A stretch of 64,000 nt of DNA, from the NCBI GenBank assembly GCA_026415355.1, contig JAOAHF010000001.1:1-64000 (forward strand), read 5' to 3'. Position numbers and translations under genes: made by a program. This stretch comes from Brevinematales bacterium (lineage in GTDB: Bacteria; Spirochaetota; Brevinematia; DTOW01). Positions 48,971 through 54,454 of this stretch are shown one piece after another (the first letter of the stretch is position 1; each line of letters begins with the position of its first letter). A model generated the notes under the pieces. The model was not told the origin of the DNA and ran no database searches. It saw only the letters and a program-made list of their open reading frames with translations.

Positions 48971-49044
48971 GGGGATGTAGCCAAGGGGCCTAAGGCGGCG
49001 GTCTGCAAAACCGCTATTCGTCGGTTCAAATCCGACCATCCCCT
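48971..49044 (+). tRNA. tRNA-Cys (GCA anticodon)
   Basis: Acceptor GGGGATG pairs with CATCCCC and the discriminator is T, as is general for Cys tRNAs. Anticodon loop CTGCAAA lies in stem GCGGT/ACCGC. Its last two bases overlap the stop codon of the TPR protein gene on the opposite strand. Confidence 0.93.
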
Positions 49045-52000
49045 ATTTGCCAAGTTTGGCTCTTGCTATATATTTCCTCGCTTGTTCATTGCTTGGGTCT
49101 ATATCAAGAATTTTCTGCCAGTTTTCTATTGCCTTACTTATGTTTCCTTTCCTATACTCTTCAACTCCTTTTGACATAAGAGATGCTATTTCTCTCTGTA
49201 TCTTTTCGGTATCTCTTAAGATGATAGAATTATACTTTATCCTAGCGTCATTAAGAAGGTTTCTGGCATTCGTGTTGTTAGGATCATCATCTAATACCAA
49301 AAGCAATATTCTGATTGCTTCTTTGTAGTTACCTGAATTATAAGCATTTCTGCCGAGAGTAAAATTCTTAGAAATTCTGTCATTCAATCTACTCTGTGCT
49401 AGGGATAATTTGATTTTTGCATCAGCATCGTCAGGGAAATATTTAAGTATTGCTTTTAATCTATTAATTGCTTTTTTGTAATCTTCTCTCTTTATAAGAT
49501 CATCTGCTTCGTTTCTTAATGTAGAAACTTTTGCATATAACTTCTCGAGAATGCTTTCTTTCAAACTCTGTAGATTAGGGTCTTTAGGATTTAAAGCCAA
49601 AAGATCATCTATTATGTCTAATGCATCTGAATATTCTCCTACTTGGAATAGATTTCTTACTTCGTTAAGGTCATCTTTTATTTTTTGTATGGTTTCAATC
49701 ATGAATTTATAAAGTGGATTATCTGGTGATATCTTTGAAAGTGTATTATAATCTTCGAGTGCTTTGTTATATTCTCCTAGTCTAAAATTGTTGTCTGCTT
49801 GATCTAATATATCTTTTTCAATCATCTTTAGTTTATTATTAACTTCTGTTAAGAGTAGCTTGATTTCAGAGGAATTTGGATTATTTTTAAGTGCAATTTC
49901 AAGTAGTTGTTTTGATTTGAGGTATTCACCTTTCTCGTAAGCTTTTTTACCTTCTATGAAGCTTGTATTTTTCTCAAGGTTAAATTCTTCTTCTGCGTTC
50001 TTTATGTAATTATCAATAATAGATATATCATCCCCTAAGGATAAAAATCTGTTTCTTGACTCCTTGAGTTTTGAAATACCTTCATTGTAGTTTTTTCTTC
50101 TAATTTCTTTTAGTCCTGTGCTTAGTAATAAGTTTGCTTCGTCTCTTAACTGTGTTTCTTTAGCTTTTGTTTCAATTTCTTTTATTCTTTTACTTATTTC
50201 TGAATTGTTTGGATCAATTTTTAAAGCTTCTTGTAAAACTTTTTTAGCACCTTCGTAGTCGTAGTTTACCAGTAATGCATCTGCTTCTCTTATTTTTTCT
50301 TCTATTCTTCTGCTTAACTCTATTTGATTAAGTTTTTGTTTCGAGTCATTGTAGTAAATTTTTATTTTAGGAAATCTCCTATCGTCCTCTGGTACGAAAC
50401 TTACAAGTTCGTCAAATATGTTGAAAGATTTTTTATATTCTCCGTTTTCGTACGCTTTTAATCCTTCGGAGTATTGGTTATCTACATAAGCGTCAAATAT
50501 TTTTTTAGCTTGATTGTATATTTCGATAGCCTGTTTGTTTGTTGGTTCAAGTTTGATAACGGTATTTATAGTTTTTATAGCATTTGTAAAGTCTCCGCTT
50601 TTTAGAAGTTCTTTGGCGTTTGCTATCTTTATATCTATATTAGCTTTAAGTTCTGTTATTTTAGAATCTACTTTTTGCTTGAGTATGACTGCTTCAGGTA
50701 GATCTTTCAAAAGTGATATAGCGGTATTCCATTTGGATATGGCAGATGGTATTTTGCCGTTGATGAAAAGTTCATCTCCTTCACTTTCCAGTTTCTTAGC
50801 TTCAGCCCTTATCGTTTCAGTTGTATTGCTTAATTCAATTTTAGCGATTTCATTGTTTCTGTAAAATCTGATTGCTTCTCTAAATTTGGATATAGCTTCC
50901 CAGTATTTTCCTTCGCTTTTTAGTTTTAAACCTTCAGCCACGAGAGAATCTGATCTTGATTTATTTTCTTGTATCTTTGAGGATGCTTCAATTTCACTTA
51001 ATGTTTTCTTAATCGCATCTTCAGCATCTTTGTTTTGAGGGTAAATTTCTAGTGCTTTATTGAAAAGTTCAAGTGCTTTGTTGAAGTTATGGACTGAAAA
51101 TTCTTTCATACCTTGCGAGTATAGTGAGTAAGACAAAGATTTTCTCTGCTCAAGTTCGAGTTTCTTGGTGGTTTCTGTTTGTATTCTGTCGTCTATCTCC
51201 TTGGATAAGTTTATTGAAGGTTCGTGAAATGGATTTAAATCAAGATTTCTATTTATAACTTTTTTAGCTTCTATAAGCTCGTTATTTGAATATAAATTTA
51301 GGGCCTCTCTGTAGTTTTTGTTAATCTCTTCTGATACTATAGCTTCAATTTGCTTTATTCCGTCGTTTGCTTCTTTGTTATAGGGATTTATCTCAAGTAC
51401 TTTTTTGTATTCTTTAATTGCTTCTCCATATTTGCTTTGTAATCTTAGAATGTTTGCTCTTGTTAATAGGGTTTTTATGTATTCTTGTTGTTCTTTAGTT
51501 AATATTTCGTTACTTTCAAGCCAAAGCATAAGTTTTCTTTTGTATATTATTGCTACTTCATTTGATGGATTTATACGTAATGCTTTATCGAAATATTTGT
51601 TTGCATTTGTAAAGTTACCTTTTTCGAATTCCACAATACCTCTTTCGACTTCTTCCTTGTCAGGAGATATACCTACAATTTGATTGATTGTTGCTTCGTT
51701 GAATACTAAATAGAGTGAAGGTACTAAATCTAGATATTGTTGACTACTATCGTGACTTATATTTCCTATTGATATTGGTGAACTGAAAAATGTCAAAACA
51801 AGAGAGAAAGACCATCCCTTGTTATCAATACCAAAAGATAGTTTAAAGTTATCAAGTACTTCTGAATTTAAGCCTACCCCGTATCTGAAATTATTGTAAC
51901 TATTTACTTGAAACTTTGTAGTTACAGAAGTCAGATAAGTGTATGAAATATATGGGTAGATAACTAGGTATTTATAAATATTTTTGTCTTTGCTGAATAG

Positions 52001-52663
52001 TGATAGAAGATAGTATCTAATACCTAATTTAGAACTGAAGCCTAAAGATGTACTTTCTAGTAATCCACCGATGAAAAAAAGTTGAGATAGAGATATGTCA
52101 ACATTGTAGTATGTTTTTAAGGTAGCACCTATTAGTGGTATGAAGTATCCCTCAAGTATGTATGAATCGTAATAAAAGATGCCAGTTGGAAAGGAGTATA
52201 TGTCTAGTGATCCTAAAATAGATATTCCCAAATCGATATTTCCGAATTCGTATAACAAAATATTACTTAATTTTGTTCCTATACCAAGTAGTATGAAATT
52301 TTGGTTGTAATTACCTAGGTAATTGAAATCTTTACTGTATACTTCTGATTGACTGTTCAGAGATGATAAACCTAATAGGATAGGATATCCTAAAATGTTG
52401 ATGTGTCCCGATATAGAGAATATAGTTTCTGTTGCAAAGTTTCCTAGAAATAACCCTAGAGAGTAGTTATTAGGTATGTTGAATGATTGTGGAGCATTGA
52501 AAAGGGAGAATGAATAACTGTTAAAAGGAGTGAAAACAACAGAAATTCCTTCACTGCTTGGAGTTAATATTTCTTGATATTTTGGAGTATTGTATGATAG
52601 TAGTTTGTCGTTTAGAATGAAAAGAAGTATAAAAACTGTGAGGAGAAATACCTTTTTTACCAT
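49043..52663 (-). CDS. Giant exported protein: N-terminal barrel-like domain plus TPR array
   Basis: The 1206-residue protein has a signal peptide (MVKKVF, hydrophobic to about residue 23). Residues about 30-310 are Gly/Ser/aromatic beta-strands like a PorV-type or other outer membrane barrel. From about 335 to the end there are at least ten TPR-like repeats, with characteristic ends such as FEKGNFTNANKYFDKALRIN, YGEAIKEYKKVLEINPYN, ALELFNKALEIYPQN, YKKAINRLKAILKYFPDDA and KAIENWQKILDIDPSNEQA. The layout suggests an outer membrane anchor with a periplasmic TPR scaffold for protein complexes. The specific partner is unknown. The 5' end is divergent from the crtQ-like gene across a 200-base gap. 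Confidence 0.78.
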   Translation of the reverse strand: MVKKVFLLTVFILLFILNDKLLSYNTPKYQEILTPSSEGISVVFTPFNSYSFSLFNAPQSFNIPNNYSLGLFLGNFATETIFSISGHINILGYPILLGLSSLNSQSEVYSKDFNYLGNYNQNFILLGIGTKLSNILLYEFGNIDLGISILGSLDIYSFPTGIFYYDSYILEGYFIPLIGATLKTYYNVDISLSQLFFIGGLLESTSLGFSSKLGIRYYLLSLFSKDKNIYKYLVIYPYISYTYLTSVTTKFQVNSYNNFRYGVGLNSEVLDNFKLSFGIDNKGWSFSLVLTFFSSPISIGNISHDSSQQYLDLVPSLYLVFNEATINQIVGISPDKEEVERGIVEFEKGNFTNANKYFDKALRINPSNEVAIIYKRKLMLWLESNEILTKEQQEYIKTLLTRANILRLQSKYGEAIKEYKKVLEINPYNKEANDGIKQIEAIVSEEINKNYREALNLYSNNELIEAKKVINRNLDLNPFHEPSINLSKEIDDRIQTETTKKLELEQRKSLSYSLYSQGMKEFSVHNFNKALELFNKALEIYPQNKDAEDAIKKTLSEIEASSKIQENKSRSDSLVAEGLKLKSEGKYWEAISKFREAIRFYRNNEIAKIELSNTTETIRAEAKKLESEGDELFINGKIPSAISKWNTAISLLKDLPEAVILKQKVDSKITELKANIDIKIANAKELLKSGDFTNAIKTINTVIKLEPTNKQAIEIYNQAKKIFDAYVDNQYSEGLKAYENGEYKKSFNIFDELVSFVPEDDRRFPKIKIYYNDSKQKLNQIELSRRIEEKIREADALLVNYDYEGAKKVLQEALKIDPNNSEISKRIKEIETKAKETQLRDEANLLLSTGLKEIRRKNYNEGISKLKESRNRFLSLGDDISIIDNYIKNAEEEFNLEKNTSFIEGKKAYEKGEYLKSKQLLEIALKNNPNSSEIKLLLTEVNNKLKMIEKDILDQADNNFRLGEYNKALEDYNTLSKISPDNPLYKFMIETIQKIKDDLNEVRNLFQVGEYSDALDIIDDLLALNPKDPNLQSLKESILEKLYAKVSTLRNEADDLIKREDYKKAINRLKAILKYFPDDADAKIKLSLAQSRLNDRISKNFTLGRNAYNSGNYKEAIRILLLVLDDDPNNTNARNLLNDARIKYNSIILRDTEKIQREIASLMSKGVEEYRKGNISKAIENWQKILDIDPSNEQARKYIARAKLGK

Positions 52664-52862: not shown

Positions 52863-53969
52863 ATGGAGATGGTTTTTGTATTATTTTTAGTTGGTAGTGT
52901 TTTAGGTCTTGTTATCTCGTTAGTGGTATTGTTCAGGTTTATTAATTTCTTTTACAGAAAAATTGATTTTGACAGAATCAGGGTTGATAAGAAAGATATT
53001 TCTGTGATAATACCAGCTAGGAATGAGGAGAATAGGATTACAAGACTTTTGAAAATTCTGGTTAGTGAGGGGTTTAAAGAGATTATAGTAGTTGATGATG
53101 ACTCTGAAGATAACACTTACGAAGTATCAAAATCTTTTGGGGTTAAAGTTTTAAAAGTCAAGGAATTCTATTCTGAATTGAGTGGTAAGAGTATAGCTTG
53201 TTATGTAGGAGCAAGTAAGTCAAGTGGAGAGTATTTGCTTTTTTTAGATGCTGATGTTTTTTTCTCAGATGGTGCTTTTGATTATGTGTTATCGAATGTT
53301 CCGAAAGATGGACTTTTAACGATACAACCTTATCACTTAACATTAAGTTTCTATGAAAAACTCTCTATGTACTTTAACATAATAGCAATAGTAGGTTTAA
53401 GTGTAGGTAGATTTTGTTGTCCCTTTAATACTAAGGGAGGATATTTTGGTCCATTCCTAATTGTTAAAAGGAACGATTATTTTAGAGTAGGGGGACATTT
53501 ATCTGTTTTTGATAGGGTAGTTGAGGATATTGAGCTTGGTAAGAGGTTTGAGAATAACAACATAAAAATATATTCAATCCCCAATAACAAACTTGTTTTT
53601 TTTCGTATGTATGGAGATGGGGTAAAAAATCTCATTGATGGTTGGACTAAGAATATGTCTCTCGGTGCTAAATCAACTGATCTTTGGAATCTGATTTTGA
53701 TTTTTGGCTTAATTGCTTTTGTTGTAAATATAACGATATATGGATTTCTGTCTATTTTTTTAGGGCAATTTGAATATTTTGCTTTTATGTATCTTACTTA
53801 CAGTTTTATTATGTTTTTAGTTTCTAGGAAAGTTGGTAATTTTGAATTTTTCTCTTGGATTTCTGTAGTTTTTGGGTGGTTTTTTTTGTTTATACTTATA
53901 AGATCGTTTTACTTTCTCAAGACAGGTAGGAAGGTTAAGTGGAGAGGTAGAGAGGTAGTGATAAGATGA
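52863..53969 (+). CDS. CrtQ-like family 2 glycosyltransferase
   Basis: The 368-residue membrane-associated GT2 protein has an N-terminal helix (about 1-30), ISVIIPARNEENRI (46-59), VVDDDSEDNT (76-85), DAD metal motif (129-131), ED at 221-222 in VVEDIELGKRF, and a WTKNMSLGA segment. Two or three C-terminal helices follow. The pattern is closest to CrtQ, which glucosylates 4,4'-diaponeurosporenoate in staphyloxanthin synthesis. It overlaps the next gene by four bases (ATGA). crtM, crtN and crtP are not in the window, so the sugar acceptor may be another lipid or a carotenoid made elsewhere. Confidence 0.75.
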   Translation: MEMVFVLFLVGSVLGLVISLVVLFRFINFFYRKIDFDRIRVDKKDISVIIPARNEENRITRLLKILVSEGFKEIIVVDDDSEDNTYEVSKSFGVKVLKVKEFYSELSGKSIACYVGASKSSGEYLLFLDADVFFSDGAFDYVLSNVPKDGLLTIQPYHLTLSFYEKLSMYFNIIAIVGLSVGRFCCPFNTKGGYFGPFLIVKRNDYFRVGGHLSVFDRVVEDIELGKRFENNNIKIYSIPNNKLVFFRMYGDGVKNLIDGWTKNMSLGAKSTDLWNLILIFGLIAFVVNITIYGFLSIFLGQFEYFAFMYLTYSFIMFLVSRKVGNFEFFSWISVVFGWFFLFILIRSFYFLKTGRKVKWRGREVVIR

Positions 53970-54454
53970 ATTTTGATATATGGTTTTTAGTATTTATGAT
54001 TATTGTTAATTCTGTTTTTTGGATTTCTGTTCACTTTTTTTCAGGGTATTTAGTACACTTCATTCCGAAATCTTTCTATACTGGTAATAATCCCTTGTTT
54101 AAGGAAAGGTTTTGGGAGTTTAATGGTAAGTTATATGAGAAAGTGTTTTTGATAAAGCTCTGGAAGGATAGGTTGCCAGAAGCAGGAGAATTGCTGAGTA
54201 TAAATCCATTTAATAAGAAGAAATTTCTATCGAGAGATAAGGAGTATATTTCAAGGTTTATCACAGAAACTTGTAGAGCTGAACTATCTCATTTATTACC
54301 TTTTCTTTTCTTACCTATAAGTTTTGTATGGAATAATTTTATTGAAGCGATGGTAGTTATGGTACTTTATTGTGTAGTTGCGAATATACCTTTTGTTATG
54401 ATTCAGAGGTACAACAGGATAAGACTTTCTAAACTTAATAGAAAGAGTTTTTGA
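53966..54454 (+). CDS. CrtO-like glycolipid acyltransferase
   Basis: The 162-residue membrane protein has helices at about 5-25 and 108-150. The middle carries KLWKDRLPEAGELLS then RFITETCRAELSH and a closing IQRYNRIRLSKL, which match CrtO (glycosyl-4,4'-diaponeurosporenoate acyltransferase), where ETCRAEL-x-H is the signature. It would esterify the sugar placed by the preceding glycosyltransferase. Its ATG overlaps the crtQ-like stop codon, so the two are translationally coupled. recG follows 22 bases later. Confidence 0.75.
   Translation: MNFDIWFLVFMIIVNSVFWISVHFFSGYLVHFIPKSFYTGNNPLFKERFWEFNGKLYEKVFLIKLWKDRLPEAGELLSINPFNKKKFLSRDKEYISRFITETCRAELSHLLPFLFLPISFVWNNFIEAMVVMVLYCVVANIPFVMIQRYNRIRLSKLNRKSF

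Follow-up and report, generated by a model that had tools for sequence, protein, structure and literature searches.

A CrtQ-like glycosyltransferase and a CrtO-family protein in a Brevinematales genome with an unlinked carotenoid operon, and close relatives in genomes without carotenoid genes

CrtO of staphylococci has been assigned as the acyltransferase of staphyloxanthin (PMC8502411); no non-carotenoid role of CrtO was found in the open-access literature. In Planococcus, CrtM, CrtN and CruF give rise to a 5-hydroxy C30 carotenoid that is glucosylated by a glycosyltransferase of the same cluster, and an uncharacterised acyltransferase gene adjoins this cluster (PMC8502411). Proteins of the CrtO family are annotated as 'glycosyl-4,4'-diaponeurosporenoate acyltransferase', which would predict a staphyloxanthin-like pigment in genomes that are unable to make carotenoids.

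We analysed a gene pair of this type in a window of 64,000 nucleotides from a Brevinematales genome. The first gene (52863..53969, plus strand) encodes a GT2 glycosyltransferase (GT) of 368 residues, of the CrtQ/CrtO-partner family (PF00535, 69.8 bits), and the second (53966..54454, plus strand) a predicted membrane acyltransferase of the CrtO family, 162 residues in length. As a preliminary description of this DNA had reported, both open reading frames lie on the same strand and overlap by four bases, in an ATGA stop/start (53966..53969, plus strand). The same overlap is seen in the pairs of a second genome of the genus (G003) and of Calescibacterium nevadense (L067), and suggests translational coupling. 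recG starts 22 bases 3' of the CrtO gene; directly upstream, a TPR-repeat protein of 1206 residues is encoded divergently on the minus strand (49043-52663).

Membership of the small protein in the CrtO family, also claimed in the preliminary description, is far beyond chance, the PF18927 match (109 bits, E 2e-31, cut-off 27.3) spanning model positions 3-122 of 123. Both of the sequence motifs named there are present. The ETCRAELSH signature (residues 101-109; 54266..54292, plus strand) is the candidate active site, and the 13 positions invariant in 44 aligned CrtO proteins include E101, T102, C103, R104, E106 and H109; the QRYNRIRL motif (residues 147-154; 54404..54427, plus strand) stands eight residues before the C-terminus, with R148 and R151 invariant and Q147, N150 and R153 conserved in at least 90% of the same proteins. 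The AF2 model (pLDDT 92.7, pTM 0.87) consists largely of long helices, at residues 5-32, 92-121 and 127-160. A structure search of the PDB with this model returned nothing matching (best E 2.7), and a profile search yielded nothing beyond weak matches to transporters (E 0.17 or worse).

The glycosyltransferase has, besides PF00535, a weak profile match to PF13506/GT21. Its DAD (DxD) metal/nucleotide-sugar motif occupies residues 129-131 (53247..53255, plus strand), D129 and D131 being invariant in the clade to which the pair belongs and conserved in at least 90% of 22 GTs. An ED motif at residues 221-222 (53523..53528, plus strand), which we take to be the catalytic base from what is known of GT2 enzymes, is likewise invariant in the clade, as are G260, W261, K263 and N264 of the GWTKN motif at residues 260-264 (53640..53654, plus strand). 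The AF2 model (pLDDT 94.4) shows an N-terminal helix, a GT-A domain and three C-terminal membrane helices, and its best fold neighbours in the PDB are a mannosyltransferase (PcManGT) and the hyaluronan and cellulose synthases, which are membrane GT2 enzymes. No NCBIfam equivalog model reached its cut-off for the GT or for CrtO, and none named CrtQ was among the matches. An apparent linkage in the class between the GT and phytoene synthase (PSY), drawn from GT2 homologues of 108-136 bits in the carotenogenic genomes G005, G006 and G015, was discarded when the tree placed these homologues outside the CrtQ family (100/100).

The locus shares several features with the staphylococcal crtOPQMN operons, from which the comparison proteins were taken. 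It too joins a GT2 enzyme to a PF18927 protein with common motifs; the GT is 32% identical to CrtQ of Staphylococcus equorum over 338 residues and CrtO 32% identical to staphylococcal CrtO over 150 residues, and the GT falls with staphylococcal CrtQ in a group of 29 rows (100/100), in a tree that set this group against three other GT2 proteins only. Unlike those operons, however, the window has a CrtO of a separate clade, the pair is unlinked to crtM or crtN, no crtP was found, and the genome has cruF. Staphylococcal CrtO and CrtQ both lie outside the clade of the pair, CrtO of S. equorum and S. warneri grouping with an Enterococcus protein (L075).

The preliminary description had stated that none of crtM, crtN and crtP is near the pair. 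This is correct locally, but not genome-wide: a search of the window genome (G000; 1.76 Mb in 80 contigs, 97% complete) returned an operon of three overlapping genes, crtI/N - cruF - crtM/B, at the start of contig C8 (C8:150-3242), the pair being on contig C1. The operon encodes a desaturase of the crtI/N family (TIGR02734, crtI_fam, 384 bits, cut-off 238), a Caroten_synth protein resembling CruF (PF04240, 124.8 bits; none of the NCBIfam CruF models reaches its cut-off) and a phytoene/dehydrosqualene synthase (SQS_PSY; PF00494, 185 bits) that scores alike against the C30 and C40 types (CrtM 154 bits, phytoene synthase 152 bits). CruF-type enzymes hydrate the end of acyclic carotenoids. Only one crtI_fam gene exceeds the cut-off genome-wide, and therefore no CrtP was found; a second PF01593 match is, by inspection, a UDP-galactopyranose-mutase-like open reading frame. 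A complete crtMNP set elsewhere in the genome, with carotenoids present, had been named in advance as evidence against the original proposal, and the C8 operon largely provides such a set, crtP excepted. A carotenoid acceptor is therefore available in this organism, and the pair does not stand outside carotenogenesis.

In gene set, the genome resembles the glucosyl-carotenoid pathway of Planococcus with its genes scattered. As in the crtM-crtNa-crtNb-cruF-GT-acyltransferase cluster of P. maritimus iso-3 (PMC8502411), a synthase, a desaturase, a CruF hydratase, a GT and an acyltransferase-like gene occur in one genome. In contrast to that cluster, they lie at two loci and only one crtI/N gene is over the cut-off; the likeness was judged by gene set.

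Two genomes of the genus have both pair and operon, and two have neither. G003 has the pair together with crtI/N, cruF and crtM/B on one contig, the pair 75 kb from the operon, and its proteins are 53% (GT), 68% (CrtO), 79% (CrtN), 55% (CruF) and 64% (PSY) identical to those of the window genome; neither the pair nor the operon was found in G001 and G002. The pair lies beside ribH (recognised by eye from the sequence) in G003 and beside recG in the window genome, while in G002 (L176:966-1657, G002:C188) ribH directly adjoins recG, the site of the pair being empty or deleted. This fits an ancestral order ribH - pair - recG; G002 would have lost the pair by deletion or would not yet have acquired it. 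A RecG tree leaves the genus unresolved. In RecG identity, G001 and G002 are nearest to one another (77%), and because they look like sisters by this measure, their joint absence of pair and operon may be a single event.

When 85,000 species genomes were scanned with an alignment of CrtO, 71 loci emerged. A CrtQ-like GT is adjacent at 26 of these, and 16 of the 26 have a crtN-like gene close by. The clade of the pair comprises the window genome, G003, G022, C. nevadense, RSWP19 (L068, G004, of the same family as the window genome), Leptospiraceae SKW199 (L069, G073), UBA6089 (L070) and WOR-3 UBA5631 (L071); in the order of G022, no further member was found. Its support was 99/99 for CrtO and 98/94 for the GT, and after staphylococcal proteins were added to the trees it was recovered as a CrtO clade of eight (100/98) and a GT clade of six (100/99), the GT of L071 becoming unplaced in their presence. 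RSWP19 enters the CrtO tree only, since its GT is truncated by a contig end and remains as a fragment.

Only two of the eight clade genomes, the window genome and G003, contain PSY. The six others, which share the clade and mostly the same compact two-gene layout with the window pair (L068 by CrtO only; the GT of L071 is on the opposite strand), differ from it in that neither PSY nor crtI_fam was found over cut-off in their genomes. These six include the nearest relatives L067, L068 and L069, and completeness is 96% for G022, 97% for SKW199 and 82% for RSWP19. The preliminary description had proposed a survey of genomes that carry the pair without carotenoid genes, and such genomes thus form most of the clade. 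Because six members lack PSY and crtI, the enzymes there must accept another substrate; in some of the close relatives, at least, the pair would thus act on a lipid that is not a C30/C40 terpenoid. Six further loci that are PSY-negative with an adjacent crtN (L076, L077, L080, L085, L090 and L118) were left out of the carotenoid-free tally because the synthase may sit on missing contigs.

A sample of 345 genomes from the phylum gave a different perspective. CrtO is present in 28 of them; seven have an adjacent CrtQ-like GT, four of these being PSY-positive, and the other 21 have neither such a neighbour nor PSY. PSY thus occurs in four of the seven genomes with a GT-paired CrtO versus 64 of the 338 others (Fisher p 0.03, kinship ignored). 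A pooled count of CrtO against PSY in the phylum was rejected as it mixes the two kinds.

CrtO also occurs with other partners. In Sporolactobacillus, all eight loci (L093, L104, L105, L109, L110, L120, L122 and L124) have CrtO followed by a GT28 of the MGDG_synth family and by LPG_synthase_TM, and no PSY was found in the six genomes tested. Judged by gene order, this would be a glycolipid acylation operon, apparently undescribed. It is like the window pair in that a PF18927 protein adjoins a lipid glycosyltransferase, and unlike it in the partner (GT28, not GT2), the CrtO subclade and the lack of PSY. Six loci of spirochaete family f22 (L041, L047, L049, L052, L058 and L060) have the order GT8 - PlsC-type acyltransferase - CrtO, and none of their genomes is among the PSY-positive ones; their CrtO proteins, too, belong to subclades other than that of the window. 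Because GT2, GT28 and GT8-PlsC partners all occur, also in PSY-free genomes, the simplest role common to all CrtO proteins would be that of a general O-acyltransferase for the sugars of glycolipids, acting with whichever glycosyltransferase is present, carotenoids being one acceptor among several.

Whatever the acceptor, a two-step mechanism of glycosylation and acylation is in our judgement probable, with good support from homology. The GT2 enzyme would move a hexose from a nucleotide sugar onto the hydroxyl of a membrane lipid, and the CrtO-type membrane acyltransferase would then esterify that sugar with a fatty acid to give an acylated lipid glycoside, the reactions, sugar and acyl donor all being deduced from sequence. 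In the window organism, the acceptor would be an acyclic carotenoid, hydroxylated at position 1 and supplied by the unlinked C8 operon, and the product a carotenoid 1-glycoside ester, not staphyloxanthin, no crtP having been found. We give roughly even chances to a carotenoid being the physiological acceptor here, with the 1-glycoside ester the likeliest product because the pathway appears Planococcus-like with scattered genes. A hydroxylated carotenoid is placed slightly ahead of another lipid because an acceptor of the right kind is made by this genome and the pattern within the genus agrees, while the pattern across the clade shows that the enzymes are not tied to carotenoids. Against a carotenoid acceptor, the pair is unlinked to the operon in both the window genome and G003, as would be expected if it decorated a non-carotenoid membrane lipid (diacylglycerol or another lipid alcohol, for example) in this organism too, forming an acylated glycolipid next to a coincidental carotenoid operon. 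The six carotenoid-free clade members, two of them in genomes 96-97% complete, point the same way, as does CrtO in the GT28 and GT8-PlsC operons; nevertheless, the four genomes of the genus have both pair and operon or neither, GT2-paired CrtO is carotenoid-adjacent at 16 of 26 loci, and the GT28 and GT8 partners go with other subclades of CrtO and are not GT2 enzymes. We regard a non-carotenoid acceptor in this organism as a serious possibility, if not the one that we expect.

A pathway of the staphyloxanthin type, in which the acceptor is a carotenoid carboxylate and the product a glycosyl ester as in Staphylococcus, would account for the homology to CrtQ and CrtO and for the crtM/B- and crtN/I-like genes in the genome. 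It is very improbable, given that the single crtI_fam gene over cut-off leaves no CrtP, that cruF is present instead and would supply a hydroxyl and not a carboxyl, and that the window CrtO falls outside the staphylococcal clade. Equally hard to credit is that the small protein is no acyltransferase at all but an accessory membrane subunit, such as a flippase or a GT cofactor, that travels with glycosyltransferases. Its predicted fold is like that of no solved enzyme, its partners are GTs of three unrelated types and its catalytic residues are candidates only, all of which would suit such a subunit; but the staphylococcal homologue has been assigned as an acyltransferase (PMC8502411), and the invariant E, R and H residues would suit catalysis.

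At the level of the family, the evidence bears on the suggestion in the preliminary description that the pair is a general lipid-decoration module misnamed after its Staphylococcus relatives. The suggestion gains from the carotenoid-free majority of the clade and from the GT28 and GT8-PlsC partners, but its premise that the carotenoid pathway is missing fails for this organism. Tentatively, and with some doubt, the clade of the pair in Spirochaetota, Calescibacteriota and WOR-3 may be viewed as a carotenoid-independent acylated-glycolipid system, and PF18927 as a general family of glycolipid sugar acyltransferases with an unsolved fold, named after one specialised member. If CrtO is such a general acyltransferase, working with GT2, GT28 or GT8, it becomes a candidate for the synthesis of acylated glycolipids in several phyla, and would also be an enzyme with a predicted fold unlike any solved structure. 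Gene names derived from staphyloxanthin are probably too narrow, because most close relatives of the pair sit in bacteria unable to make carotenoids.

Several other loci merit description. On a plasmid of Picosynechococcus sp. PCC 7003 (L195:5850-7435), overlapping GT2 and CrtO genes have no crt genes beside them, and CrtO is annotated as a hypothetical protein. Staphyloxanthin-like clusters, with CrtN-type genes, GT2, CrtO and, by inspection, an aldehyde-dehydrogenase-like open reading frame, occur in Latescibacterota (L076), Fermentibacterota (L090) and Acidobacteriaceae (L108); the genomes of the first two have no PF00494 match. The WOR-3 locus (L071:5140-11556), in a genome without PSY, contains an SDR-like open reading frame, two FAD oxidoreductases with a weak resemblance to CrtN (about 62 bits), CrtO and the opposite-strand GT. 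A frameshift splits the GT gene of SKW199. In this Leptospiraceae genome of family f32 (L069:9782-10503), CrtO and the end of the GT gene are 94.7% identical in DNA sequence to the corresponding segment of RSWP19, of family f1 (L068:1-719), pointing to recent horizontal transfer.
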